NCBI GenBank assembly: GCA_022826155.1
Contig: JAJDVL010000048.1
Coordinates: forward strand, 1-64,000
DNA length: 64,000 nucleotides
Source of the DNA: Prochlorococcaceae cyanobacterium jk18x22bins.40
Lineage (GTDB): Bacteria; Cyanobacteriota; Cyanobacteriia; PCC-6307; Cyanobiaceae
Direction: 5' to 3'
Shown: positions 39,959 to 49,003 of the stretch, piece after piece
Layout: each line of letters starts with the position of its first letter
Numbering within the stretch: the first letter of the stretch is position 1
Position numbers and translations under genes: made by a program
The notes under the pieces: generated by a model
The model's input: only the letters and a program-made list of their open reading frames with translations
Database searches by the model: none
Told to the model about the DNA's origin: nothing

Positions 39959-42900
39959 GCTGCGGATTGCGGCCCTTCCTCGGTTTGCTACACTTCATTT
40001 TCTGGGAGCTTGTCCCCATACTGATGGCTGCGGATTGCGGCCCTTCCTCGGTTTGCTACACTCCACGCTGGCTATGGCCCAGTAGCAACTATGCTGCGGA
40101 TTGCGGCCCTTCCTCGGTTTGCTACACTTGCTCTGTGACACCACCCCCAGGCTTTTGTGCTGCGGATTGCGGCCCTTCCTCGGTTTGCTACACTAGTAGC
40201 AGGAGCGGGGACGTCTGCCCTGGGGCTGCGGATTGCGGCCCTTCCTCGGTTTGCTACACTATGCTTCCTGGTGTTAAATGTTGCGTCGGGGCTGCGGATT
40301 GCGGCCCTTCCTCGGTTTGCTACACTATTCCCAGTCATATATAACACAGTAGGCGTGCTGCGGATTGCGGCCCTTCCTCGGTTTGCTACACTTTGCAAAG
40401 GTGATCGCCGCGCAGCTTGTGAGCTGCGGATTGCGGCCCTTCCTCGGTTTGCTACACTCACCACAACCACCGACCCTGAAACCCTCCCGCTGCGGATTGC
40501 GGCCCTTCCTCGGTTTGCTACACTGCAGCACGGCCAGAACCGCCAGCCTTTTTGAGCTGCGGATTGCGGCCCTTCCTCGGTTTGCTACACTTCACGGAGA
40601 GAAGCCAAACGAAAGAGCCGGTGCTGCGGATTGCGGCCCTTCCTCGGTTTGCTACACTCCTAGAGGAAGCCGCCTTCCACCATTCAATGCTGCGGATTGC
40701 GGCCCTTCCTCGGTTTGCTACACTTGGCGCCACCCTCACCAATACGGCCGGGGGGCTGCGGATTGCGGCCCTTCCTCGGTTTGCTACACTTTCTTGCCGC
40801 CTGGGAGCAGCGTGACGTGAGCTGCGGATTGCGGCCCTTCCTCGGTTTGCTACACTCATCAACACTTGGCCGCTACTGCCCAGTGCGCTGCGGATTGCGG
40901 CCCTTCCTCGGTTTGCTACACTGGCGTTGGTTTTGCCCATGTACCTAATATAGCTGCGGATTGCGGCCCTTCCTCGGTTTGCTACACTGGCCACGGGTGA
41001 CGGACGGACGCTGGACACGCTGCGGATTGCGGCCCTTCCTCGGTTTGCTACACTTCCGGCAGGCCGTGGAGCAGGGGCGACGGGTGCTGCGGATTGCGGC
41101 CCTTCCTCGGTTTGCTACACTCACCCGGTCAGCGTCGTGGAGTGCCATGGCGCTGCGGATTGCGGCCCTTCCTCGGTTTGCTACACTCATGAAGTTCAAT
41201 CGCAACGCTCTCAAACGGCTGCGGATTGCGGCCCTTCCTCGGTTTGCTACACTCTGACTGCCGTCCTTCTTTATCGCCTCTTCGCTGCGGATTGCGGCCC
41301 TTCCTCGGTTTGCTACACTCACTATTGGTGCGTGGGCCATCTGTCACTCGCTGCGGATTGCGGCCCTTCCTCGGTTTGCTACACTTGCAGGCGGACGAGG
41401 TCTCCGTCCACGCGGGGCTGCGGATTGCGGCCCTTCCTCGGTTTGCTACACTGCTCGATCGACACGAGGACCTGGAACTGGGGCTGCGGATTGCGGCCCT
41501 TCCTCGGTTTGCTACACTCTGTCGTCGTCAGCGGCCCTGAGGTCGTGGGCTGCGGATTGCGGCCCTTCCTCGGTTTGCTACACTCAGGGGATCCTGTACT
41601 CCGATTGATCCGATAGCTGCGGATTGCGGCCCTTCCTCGGTTTGCTACACTAGAGTCTTTGATGTTCTTGAGATCGAGGTCGCTGCGGATTGCGGCCCTT
41701 CCTCGGTTTGCTACACTGCGTTGAGCGACGCCTTCAAAATGCAAAATGCTGCGGATTGCGGCCCTTCCTCGGTTTGCTACACTGGCCTGGATCACGGTGC
41801 CGAAAACCTGTGTGCTGCGGATTGCGGCCCTTCCTCGGTTTGCTACACTCACTGGCACGGCGCCTGTCATCACTGATGGGCTGCGGATTGCGGCCCTTCC
41901 TCGGTTTGCTACACTGGCTTGCGTTTCTCGGCGTTGTTTGGTATGGCTGCGGATTGCGGCCCTTCCTCGGTTTGCTACACTCAGCGCCAACCACGGCAAC
42001 AGCGCCAACCAGCTGCGGATTGCGGCCCTTCCTCGGTTTGCTACACTTTCTAGCAATTTTCCGCTGTCCCCGAACGTGCTGCGGATTGCGGCCCTTCCTC
42101 GGTTTGCTACACTCGTTGCGCGTGAGGTCGCGCTTGAGGCATTGCTGCGGATTGCGGCCCTTCCTCGGTTTGCTACACTCAGCCCACCTGTCGCGCGATC
42201 GAGTGAGATGCTGCGGATTGCGGCCCTTCCTCGGTTTGCTACACTCCGTCCCAGGTGGTGTTGCTGTAGGTCAGGCGCTGCGGATTGCGGCCCTTCCTCG
42301 GTTTGCTACACTCACCCAGGCAGGGTTCTCCATGCGTGTCACGCTGCGGATTGCGGCCCTTCCTCGGTTTGCTACACTCCCGATGTTGTCGCCCATCACC
42401 ACCTCGTAGCTGCGGATTGCGGCCCTTCCTCGGTTTGCTACACTCCCCTCCTTCGTATTGAAGATCTTGAGATGGCTGCGGATTGCGGCCCTTCCTCGGT
42501 TTGCTACACTCCCCTTTGCTCGATTCTAGCTTAGCTTATCGCTGCGGATTGCGGCCCTTCCTCGGTTTGCTACACTGTGTCGGGAAAGCTCTGGGATCTG
42601 TTGCTGGCTGCGGATTGCGGCCCTTCCTCGGTTTGCTACACTTACAACAGCGGTGAGCAGTCGCGCCATTGGGCTGCGGATTGCGGCCCTTCCTCGGTTT
42701 GCTACACTCGGATCGTCCTGACAAAAACGCATCACTGTGCTGCGGATTGCGGCCCTTCCTCGGTTTGCTACACTTAAGACTGTATTACAGATTGTTCAAA
42801 TCTGGCTGCGGATTGCGGCCCTTCCTCGGTTTGCTACACTCGGCACGCTGGTGGTGTTGAGTGCCAACTGGCTGCGGATTGCGGCCCTTCCTCGGTTTGC

Positions 42901-44226
42901 TACACTCGCCGGTGAACGCAGCAGCGACACAGAGCAGCTGCGGATTGCGGCCCTTCCTCGGTTTGCTACACTCTCTCGCGTCTGTCTGGAACCGCTTCAC
43001 CAGCTGCGGATTGCGGCCCTTCCTCGGTTTGCTACACTCAGCGGCACAAAGCCAACGATGCTGGGATCGCTGCGGATTGCGGCCCTTCCTCGGTTTGCTA
43101 CACTCGGCGCGAATCCCCGAGTCATCCAGCCCAGGCTGCGGATTGCGGCCCTTCCTCGGTTTGCTACACTCATGAAATTCAACCGCAACGCTTTAAAAAG
43201 GCTGCGGATTGCGGCCCTTCCTCGGTTTGCTACACTGGTCCTGTCGTGGCCCGGTCGCGCCTCGGTGCTGCGGATTGCGGCCCTTCCTCGGTTTGCTACA
43301 CTCCGGATCCCGGCGCTCCACCGCTGTGAGCAGCTGCGGATTGCGGCCCTTCCTCGGTTTGCTACACTGATGCCGGGGGCCGCGTGGTAGGCGGCAGCGC
43401 TGCGGATTGCGGCCCTTCCTCGGTTTGCTACACTTGTGCTTGGTCAATTTGGTCTCCTGGGAATGCTGCGGATTGCGGCCCTTCCTCGGTTTGCTACACT
43501 AAAGAGTTGAGTCGTTGGGAATTGAGAATTGCTGCGGATTGCGGCCCTTCCTCGGTTTGCTACACTTCCACTGCCATCCACCATCCAATGAAAAATGCTG
43601 CGGATTGCGGCCCTTCCTCGGTTTGCTACACTGCGGAAGAACATCGACAAGTTTCAGTTTGGGCTGCGGATTGCGGCCCTTCCTCGGTTTGCTACACTAA
43701 TGGGCGCCCTTCAGATGCAGCGGCAGACGCTGCGGATTGCGGCCCTTCCTCGGTTTGCTACACTGCTGACCGAATTTCCCGTACAGGCTGTTGAGCTGCG
43801 GATTGCGGCCCTTCCTCGGTTTGCTACACTCGTGAATGCCGCTGACACGTCTGTGCACAGGCTGCGGATTGCGGCCCTTCCTCGGTTTGCTACACTCAAC
43901 GCGCTGAATGCTGGCGGCAATGAGGTGCTGCGGATTGCGGCCCTTCCTCGGTTTGCTACACTCCGCTGAGCCATGAGCATTGCCAGTCTCGCGCTGCGGA
44001 TTGCGGCCCTTCCTCGGTTTGCTACACTCTTGGCCAGCAACGACCGCTTCCGAGAGAGGCTGCGGATTGCGGCCCTTCCTCGGTTTGCTACACTCCCACG
44101 GGTTCACCCCATCAGCCCAGTTACGCTGCGGATTGCGGCCCTTCCTCGGTTTGCTACACTCCTGGTACTCCAGGTCACGGCGTCGTCAGCGCTGCGGATT
44201 GCGGCCCTTCCTCGGTTTGCTACACT
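39959..44226 (+). CRISPR. Type II-C CRISPR array: 65 repeats, 64 spacers
   Basis: I counted 65 copies of a 36-bp repeat that begins GCTGCGGATTGCGGCC, continues CTTC and ends CTCGGTTTGCTACACT. The first is at 39959-39994 and the last at 44191-44226. As far as I can see all copies are identical, with no degenerate end repeat. Of the 64 spacers, 57 are 30 nt, six are 31 nt and the first is 32 nt. The repeat is very close to the one I recall for Parvibaculum lavamentivorans. The tracrRNA on the same strand pairs with this orientation, so crRNAs are plus-strand and the array runs opposite to cas9-cas1-cas2. Confidence 0.99.
39967..39994 (+). promoter_or_regulatory. Promoter-like element inside each repeat (first copy shown)
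   Basis: Within every repeat, TTGCGG at repeat positions 9-14 and TACACT at 31-36 are 16 bp apart, with TG one base before the second hexamer. This reads as a -35 box and an extended -10 box directed into the next spacer. Neisseria meningitidis type II-C repeats carry the same kind of terminal extended -10, which drives one short transcript per spacer. Function here is inferred from sequence and position. Confidence 0.5.
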
Positions 44227-44275
44227 ACCGATCCCCAAAAGCCGCTCAGCGCCACTGGTTTCACCTATTTCAAGC

Positions 44276-44626
44276 TCAGAAAAACTCCAACTGGGCGGGT
44301 GAAACTGGTGGCTCTTGGCGCATTTTTCCCATGTAGGTCTCGATCCGGCCAAACTGCTTGTCTGTGATGGTCAGGAAGCGCACCTCCCCTGCTGAGGGAA
44401 CGCAGCGGCCAATGCGGACCACATGGATCCTGGCGTTCTCAATGGAGGCGCAGTGGCGGATGTACACCGAGTACTGCATCATGGTGAAGCCATCCCGGAG
44501 CAGGGCCTTACGAAACCGGGTGTAGGCCTTGCGGGCTTTGGCCGTATCCGTTGGCAGGTCGAACATGGCAATCACCCACATGGAGCGCCATCCCCAAGGA
44601 ATTTGCCGCACCGGCCCCGACGTCAC
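44276..44626 (-). CDS. cas2: CRISPR-associated endonuclease Cas2
   Basis: Structural half of the Cas1-Cas2 integrase that inserts new spacers. A 116-residue ferredoxin-fold protein: WVIAMFDLPTDTAKARKAYTRFRKAL with the conserved Asp at residue 23, MMQYSVYIRH and VRFLTITDKQFGRIETYMGK. The start overlaps the cas1 stop as ATGA. Only 49 bp separate its stop from the last CRISPR repeat. Starting at Met16 (MWVIAMFDL) would give a more usual length, but the coupling with cas1 favours the ATG at 44626. Confidence 0.95.
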   Translation of the reverse strand: MTSGPVRQIPWGWRSMWVIAMFDLPTDTAKARKAYTRFRKALLRDGFTMMQYSVYIRHCASIENARIHVVRIGRCVPSAGEVRFLTITDKQFGRIETYMGKMRQEPPVSPAQLEFF

Positions 44627-45567
44627 AGGCCATCCCTTGGCTCTGCTTGCTCAAGAGGGTCCAACTGCAAAGGCAGCCCTGTGGGAAGAGATAAGGTGCG
44701 ATCCCCACCAGTCAGGGCGCGGCAGAGGGAGGCTGCGCTGGTGTGCAAGGCCAGCAACAGGGGTTCACGCCGCTGCCCCACCCAAATGGTTTCATTCAGT
44801 AACGAAAGCAAGGCTGCACGGGTCTCCCGTTGGGCCACCCTGGGCACAGAGGCGCCATTGCCGTCCACCAGCAGGCGAACCCGCCAATCCACATAGGGCC
44901 TGTAGGGCTCCAGCAGATCATCCGCAAGGCAAAACGGATTATTGCGGTGGCGATGGTGTACACCGAGGGAAGGAATCAAGCCAGTGGCCACAATGGCCCG
45001 CGCCACCGCGGCCCGCAGTACGGCGTAGCCGTAGTTGAGCAGGGCGTTCACACCCTCAGCCTCCCGGTCACGGTGAAACCCTCGGCCAAACAGGAGAGGC
45101 CAATATCGCTGAGCAGCCTGGGCCTCCAGGTTATCCGGATCGCCTGAGCGGACTTTCCTGGCCATGGCCACCAGCCTCTTGTGGCCTTCATTAAACTGGG
45201 CCAGCACCACGGCTTGTTGGCTGATCTTGGCCCGCACAATGGCTTGCCAAGCTTGTTTTCGCACTGGCTCACTGGCCAGCACCTGGGCACGGTGCCGCTC
45301 AGCTTGCACATGGTGGGCATCCAGGGGCAACATCATGCCGATGGGGAGGTGATCGCGCCCTGTAACCAGCACTGTGGCGCCTGCGGCCAACAGTTCCAGA
45401 AATACTGCTTGGGTGTAGGTAGCGCGGACGTCATCTACAATCACCACACCCAAATCTTCAATGGGCAGGGTTGCCTTGGGGAGATCAGGCCTCTGGATCA
45501 CCAACTGGCGATGAGCAACAGAGAGGCGCGTGCCAGGTGTCGAGAACTCGATTGTTTTACGGAGCAT
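44623..45567 (-). CDS. cas1: CRISPR-associated endonuclease Cas1 (type II)
   Basis: Integrase subunit, 314 residues. Metal-binding residues fit the family: Glu in NLEAQAAQRYWPLLFG (about residue 148), His in PSLGVHHRHRNNPFCLADDLLEPYRP (about 204) and Asp in the same helix (about 219). The sequence LGVVIVDDVRATYTQAVFLELLAAGATVLV is the type II form. It lies 11 bp after cas9 and overlaps cas2 by four bases. No csn2 or cas4 is present, which defines subtype II-C. Confidence 0.96.
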   Translation of the reverse strand: MLRKTIEFSTPGTRLSVAHRQLVIQRPDLPKATLPIEDLGVVIVDDVRATYTQAVFLELLAAGATVLVTGRDHLPIGMMLPLDAHHVQAERHRAQVLASEPVRKQAWQAIVRAKISQQAVVLAQFNEGHKRLVAMARKVRSGDPDNLEAQAAQRYWPLLFGRGFHRDREAEGVNALLNYGYAVLRAAVARAIVATGLIPSLGVHHRHRNNPFCLADDLLEPYRPYVDWRVRLLVDGNGASVPRVAQRETRAALLSLLNETIWVGQRREPLLLALHTSAASLCRALTGGDRTLSLPTGLPLQLDPLEQAEPRDGL

Positions 45568-48826: not shown

Positions 48827-48855
48827 TTGCACAAGCTGAGAGAGAATGCTATTAT
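48827..48855 (+). promoter_or_regulatory. Sigma-70 promoter for tracrRNA
   Basis: TTGCAC at 48827-48832 and TATTAT at 48850-48855 are separated by exactly 17 bp, and TG at 48847-48848 makes an extended -10. The predicted transcript start, near 48862, falls right at the anti-repeat. The element lies between the cas9 start codon (48815, minus strand) and the tracrRNA, pointing away from cas9. Confidence 0.75.
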
Positions 48856-48861
48856 CGCATA

Positions 48862-49003
48862 CGTAGCAAACCGAGAAGTGGTCTCCGAATTGGTTGGCTG
48901 CTTGCAGCCGCTTTTCGCAGCAAAATGACCCTTCGTGTGGGCTCGGCATCCCAAGGTCAACCGCCGGCACCCCAAACCCTCGCCCCAGGGCGGGGGTTTG
49001 TTG
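48862..49003 (+). ncRNA. tracrRNA of the type II-C system
   Basis: The anti-repeat GTAGCAAACCGAG (48863-48875) is complementary to repeat positions 21-33. AAG-T-GGTC (48876-48883) extends the pairing to repeat position 13 with one bulged T and one G-U pair, and CGCAGC (48916-48921) pairs with repeat positions 1-6. Between these parts lies an extra hairpin, GGCTGC-TT-GCAGCC (48896-48909). Downstream, TGACC (48926-48930) pairs with GGTCA (48955-48959) around GTGGGCTCGGCATCCCA, a segment very like the Parvibaculum tracrRNA as I recall it. The RNA should guide RNase III processing and bind Cas9. The end is set by a hairpin. Confidence 0.85.
48973..49003 (+). terminator. Terminator-like hairpin of tracrRNA
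   Basis: CAAACCCTCGCCC (48973-48985) can pair with GGGCGGGGGTTTG (48988-49000) over up to 13 pairs including one G-U, with the innermost pairs opened for the loop. The following bases TTGCATC are a weak T run. In cyanobacteria strong hairpins without long T tails are common, so this is the likely 3' end of the tracrRNA. Confidence 0.65.

Follow-up and report, generated by a model that had tools for sequence, protein, structure and literature searches.

The window, a stretch of 64,000 nucleotides from a Prochlorococcaceae cyanobacterium, contains a CRISPR array in which two spacers, numbers 19 and 49, are close variants of one sequence. The question raised by this locus is how a single array came to hold both. 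Our preferred answer, to which we assign a probability of about 0.85, is that the two spacers are independent captures of one coding position from two diverged relatives of the same element, most likely a virus. The features of the locus are compiled in Table 1.

Table 1. Features of the CRISPR-Cas locus (positions are those of the window).
Feature	Position	Strand	Sequence or basis
CRISPR array	39959..44226	+	repeat GCTGCGGATTGCGGCCCTTCCTCGGTTTGCTACACT; crRNA orientation according to anti-repeat and predicted tracrRNA
Spacer 19, older of the pair	41188..41217	+	CATGAAGTTCAATCGCAACGCTCTCAAACG
Spacer 49, younger of the pair	43171..43200	+	CATGAAATTCAACCGCAACGCTTTAAAAAG
Leader-end flank, last repeat to cas2	44227..44275		starts with ACCGATCCCCAAAAGCCGCTCAGCG; kept beside arrays of relatives G005 and G008
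cas2	44276..44626	-	TIGR01573, E 2.2e-18
cas1, type II form	44623..45567	-	TIGR03639, E 2.5e-76
cas9, 1078 aa	45579..48815	-	TIGR01865, E 1.4e-187
Sigma-70-like promoter, extended -10 (TGC TATTAT), before anti-repeat	48828..48855	+	one found, 0.2 expected
Predicted tracrRNA, anti-repeat from 48863, G+C-rich hairpin at end	48863..49000	+	in silico

Genes cas9, cas1 and cas2 are contiguous, the array follows directly, and neither csn2 nor cas4 is present. This gene content and layout, together with the predicted tracrRNA, are those of a type II-C CRISPR-Cas system. The array consists of 65 repeats of 36 nt, all identical, and holds 64 spacers (57 of 30 nt, six of 31 nt and one of 32 nt).

The anti-repeat located upstream of cas9 matches, apart from bulges, the repeat read on the opposite strand, and its duplex with the plus-strand repeat was calculated at about -48 kcal/mol. 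Since anti-repeat and promoter lie on the plus strand (48828-48890), the crRNAs are predicted to be plus-strand transcripts with the 3' end of each spacer on the PAM side. This bears out the first-pass annotation, which had taken that end of the spacer as the PAM-side seed. A canonical T-run terminator was not found for the predicted tracrRNA, and Rfam returned no RNA family in the locus. The end of every repeat, TGC-TACACT, resembles an extended -10 element, which would be expected if the crRNAs here started from promoters within the repeats, as they do in other II-C systems. Judged by anti-repeat and leader flank, the array would run opposite to the cas operon (cas genes on the minus strand, crRNA on the plus strand) and toward the leader. 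Both features, transcription opposite to the cas operon (PMC3936727) and toward the leader (PMC8092290), are published for type II-C loci.

The flank on the cas2 side recurs next to the arrays of two relatives, and in one of them the other end of the array carries a degenerate repeat. The conserved flank together with this degenerate repeat places the entry of new spacers on the cas2 side, and this array polarity makes spacer 49 the younger of the pair.

Spacers 19 and 49 are equal in length and end points and match in one register at 25 of 30 positions. Their positions and sequences proved exact, as did the five mismatches claimed at positions 7, 13, 23, 25 and 29. They are by far the most alike pair in the array, with a best local score of 18, the next being 12. 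When the 64 spacers were shuffled 200 times, the top in-register match of any pair never exceeded 20 of 30, and in 60 Markov-1 simulated arrays the top local score was at most 12.5. As neither control ever reached the values of the real pair, the similarity is real and beyond chance.

Duplication of spacers within arrays occurs, and one of the two spacers might be a copy of the other, produced by recombination between repeats and subsequently mutated at five positions. Five changes per 30 bases are implausible next to 65 repeats (2340 bases) without any mutation, and the identity of all 65 repeats implies that the divergence did not arise within the array. The changes moreover respect codons, for which there would be no reason in a non-coding array. 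For practical purposes this excludes a copied and then mutated spacer.

This codon pattern is seen when both spacers are read from the ATG that follows their first base, a C. The shared codons are ATG AAR TTC AAY CGC AAC GCT (CTC/TTA) AAA, encoding MKFNRNALK; spacer 19 carries AAG, AAT and CTC where spacer 49 carries AAA, AAC and TTA. Ten shared residues had been proposed, of which the nine with complete codons stand. Of the tenth codon only the first two bases lie within the spacers (CG- in spacer 19, AG- in spacer 49). Likewise, four of the five changes are synonymous as claimed, while the fifth falls in the split codon and would preserve arginine in both only if third bases outside the spacers allow it.

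Six frames were examined, three of which are open in both spacers. Only frame +2 is without replacements, the remaining open frames requiring 3-5 each. When five substitutions were drawn at random 300,000 times, at least one of the six frames stayed open and fully synonymous in 0.04-0.13% of cases, and in 0.2-0.4% when a transition bias was applied. It is therefore highly improbable that the shared frame is a coincidence at a site that is non-coding or translated in a different frame, as the probability for random changes is 0.0004-0.004 with all six frames counted. Accident would gain from the small basis of the test, which is five substitutions only, and from the fact that no protein was identified. 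Of the 4.5 synonymous sites in the nine codons, 3 differ (about two thirds), and no residue does; the count includes one non-synonymous step, which stems from averaging over the intermediates between CTC and TTA. The synonymous sites thus look near-saturated, and the divergence shows the pattern of a translated sequence. Of the first-pass proposal that the spacers derive from the same coding start in diverged but selected relatives, the frame test and the synonymous counts uphold one coding position under purifying selection. The start itself is an assumption, as the ATG could encode an internal methionine.

Independent capture of the two spacers would proceed as follows. Cas1-Cas2 would capture a homologous stretch of 30 bp within one protein-coding gene, once from each of two relatives of a mobile element, with Cas9 recognising the PAM during capture by analogy to known type II systems. 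Between the two events, at least 29 other spacers that are still in the array would have been added. In the meantime the site would stay PAM-competent, and the peptide MKFNRNALK would be kept while synonymous positions diverge heavily. Spacer 49, being nearer to the leader, would be taken later and would provide a matching guide against the second lineage. General knowledge of Cas9 makes it plausible that guide 19 would match variant 49 poorly and work poorly on it. What the data show directly are the spacer sequences, the frame bias, the elements that set the orientation and the signs of array polarity; a virus as the source, the ATG as the start of the gene, the PAM and the effect on interference are what we infer. 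Equal length and end points of the two spacers are expected from a fixed PAM ruler.

The identical end points, used twice, might also reflect a hotspot of acquisition, or priming, in which Cas9, led to the new virus by the old and mismatched spacer 19, favoured recapture there. For Flavobacterium columnare, uneven spacer uptake and possible II-C priming have been described (PMC8092290). Yet uniform sampling alone predicts 0.02-3 same-site pairs per array, about 0.05-1 in most combinations, for 16-64 spacers from one virus family, genomes of 20-60 kb and a PAM every 16-64 positions. A repeatedly used capture site, as suggested in the first-pass annotation, is hence not needed. No second pair exceeds chance either: spacers 11 and 55 score 12, a value that 15% of the simulations also attained. 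Nor do the two smaller related arrays, with 35 and 5 spacers, contain a comparable pair; their best score is 12, against 18 for spacers 19 and 49. A hotspot or priming is unlikely on these grounds, and the narrower claim that the shared end points result from II-C priming, with the mismatched old spacer directing recapture in the diverged virus, somewhat more so. If it were true, the array would be refreshing an outdated guide.

A further alternative is stepwise escape: selected by spacer 19, one virus lineage would have altered the seed of this site and later been captured again, giving spacer 49. Given plus-strand crRNAs, three of the five differences indeed lie within the last 8 bases, the seed side. 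By position alone this enrichment has a P of about 0.10, and the clustering to which attention had been drawn is not significant. As free codon positions dictate where changes can fall, there is no sign of seed-directed escape. One change would have been enough for escape, but here the silent differences are spread over the spacer, and the change of the leucine codon (CTC/TTA) takes two steps. Such heavy silent divergence speaks for two long-separated lineages and not for stepwise escape of one, which we regard as very unlikely. The pair is accordingly unlikely to be a record of co-evolution in the sense of escape; with about two thirds of the synonymous sites differing, it looks like the trace of two old lineages.

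Searches for the source of the pair covered 50,697 phage records, 72,556 plasmids, 2.9 million viral contigs (IMG/VR), 84,980 genomes (GTDB) and the genomes of relatives; at the sensitivities used, neither the spacers nor MKFNRNALK identified a protospacer in them. This counts against the preferred reading, although a site missing from databases does not disprove it. Exact degenerate searches of IMG/VR and the GTDB genomes for MKFNRNALK, MKFNRNA and KFNRNALK returned no source gene. Short or C-terminal pattern matches to the peptide were unrelated, with no likeness outside the peptide itself. When the pair and other spacers were compared with phages by blastn, nothing was obtained for spacers 19 and 49. 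The plasmids yielded only low-complexity or chance-level matches in blastn, and tblastn with joined spacer peptides gave no match. Comparison of the spacers with 25 relatives revealed partial matches of 17-28 nt only. The site of the pair was found neither elsewhere in the host genome nor in 40 relatives, nor in 300 genomes of the same family with up to 3 mismatches allowed. The source of the two spacers is therefore external and foreign, most likely a virus.

Comparable cases are known. In a Synechococcus hot-spring mat, a spacer site in a viral lysozyme-like gene varies almost only silently or conservatively, down to 70% nucleotide identity (Heidelberg et al. 2009, PMC2612747). The two cases share a coding spacer site with mostly silent or conservative variation among virus relatives. 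In the mat the variation was seen between spacer and virome reads, whereas here both variants are spacers in one array and are known from that array alone. In Desulfofustis of the 'pink berry' consortia, two stored spacers address one protospacer sequence in two phages (PMC10370329). These are likewise two separately stored spacers for one site, but they are mutual reverse complements, in contrast to spacers 19 and 49, which have the same strand and register and are 17% diverged. The II-C locus of F. columnare has in common with the present one the 36-nt repeats, an array transcribed toward the leader or variable end, a PAM side facing the leader and natural acquisition driven by viruses, which is probable here. 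In F. columnare phages and PAM (NNNNNTAAA) have been identified, whereas the present evidence is the array sequence (PMC8092290).

Silent variation at spacer sites and two spacers per protospacer are thus already known; what is new is a clean example with both variants kept in one array. Such a pair shows from the array alone that its target site is translated, and which strand and frame are used, while leaving existing knowledge of CRISPR unchanged. It also yields an exact peptide and nucleotide sequence for tracing a cyanobacterial virus that is otherwise unknown, and it shows that two old lineages of one virus family were encountered by the host. The genome comprises 51 contigs; should the assembly represent a population, strains could be mixed in the array, which would weaken the claim that one host lineage met both viruses.

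Among the other spacers, number 58 (window positions 43765-43794) reads NSLYGKFGQ on its complement, a motif known from protein-primed family B DNA polymerases. It shares 25 contiguous bases with the polymerase gene of Arthrobacter phage Mendel (E 0.07). This suggests that a phi29-like virus infects this cyanobacterium. In a scan of 63 viral loci that carry such a polymerase, run with all spacers, spacer 58 alone rose above control, nothing was found for spacers 19 and 49, and no phi29-like cyanophage was recognised among these related loci. The match of spacer 58 thus does not identify the target of the pair. Spacer 35 matched a phi29-like capsid protein at 22 of 31 positions, which was not above control. 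Patterns for spacers 56 and 57 found nothing in IMG/VR. Spacers 11 and 55 (40659-40688 and 43567-43596) are identical at 16 of 23 positions at an offset of 7, and their complement is readable as I-x-W-W-x-A. They could represent a second diverged capture, with the chance level of their score given above; as further homologous pairs, neither 11/55 nor 26/38 rose above chance.

Copies of the CRISPR repeat also occur singly outside arrays in relatives. One that is slightly degenerate, with 5-6 mismatches, is present in two species of the genus, at about 1746-1781 of locus L023 (G000:C28:35745-35779, minus strand) and at 1987-2022 of locus L028 (G003:C134). The surrounding 636 bases are 98% identical between the two species, and no 12-mer from the 40 bases that follow the repeat was found in the window. 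A possible reading of this solitary repeat is a remnant or a regulatory crRNA-like element. Another relative has two more solitary repeats with 3 and 6 mismatches (L026 and L027, on G001:C16 and G001:C168), and the one on G001:C16 is bordered by ACCTTCACGTCTTT on both sides.
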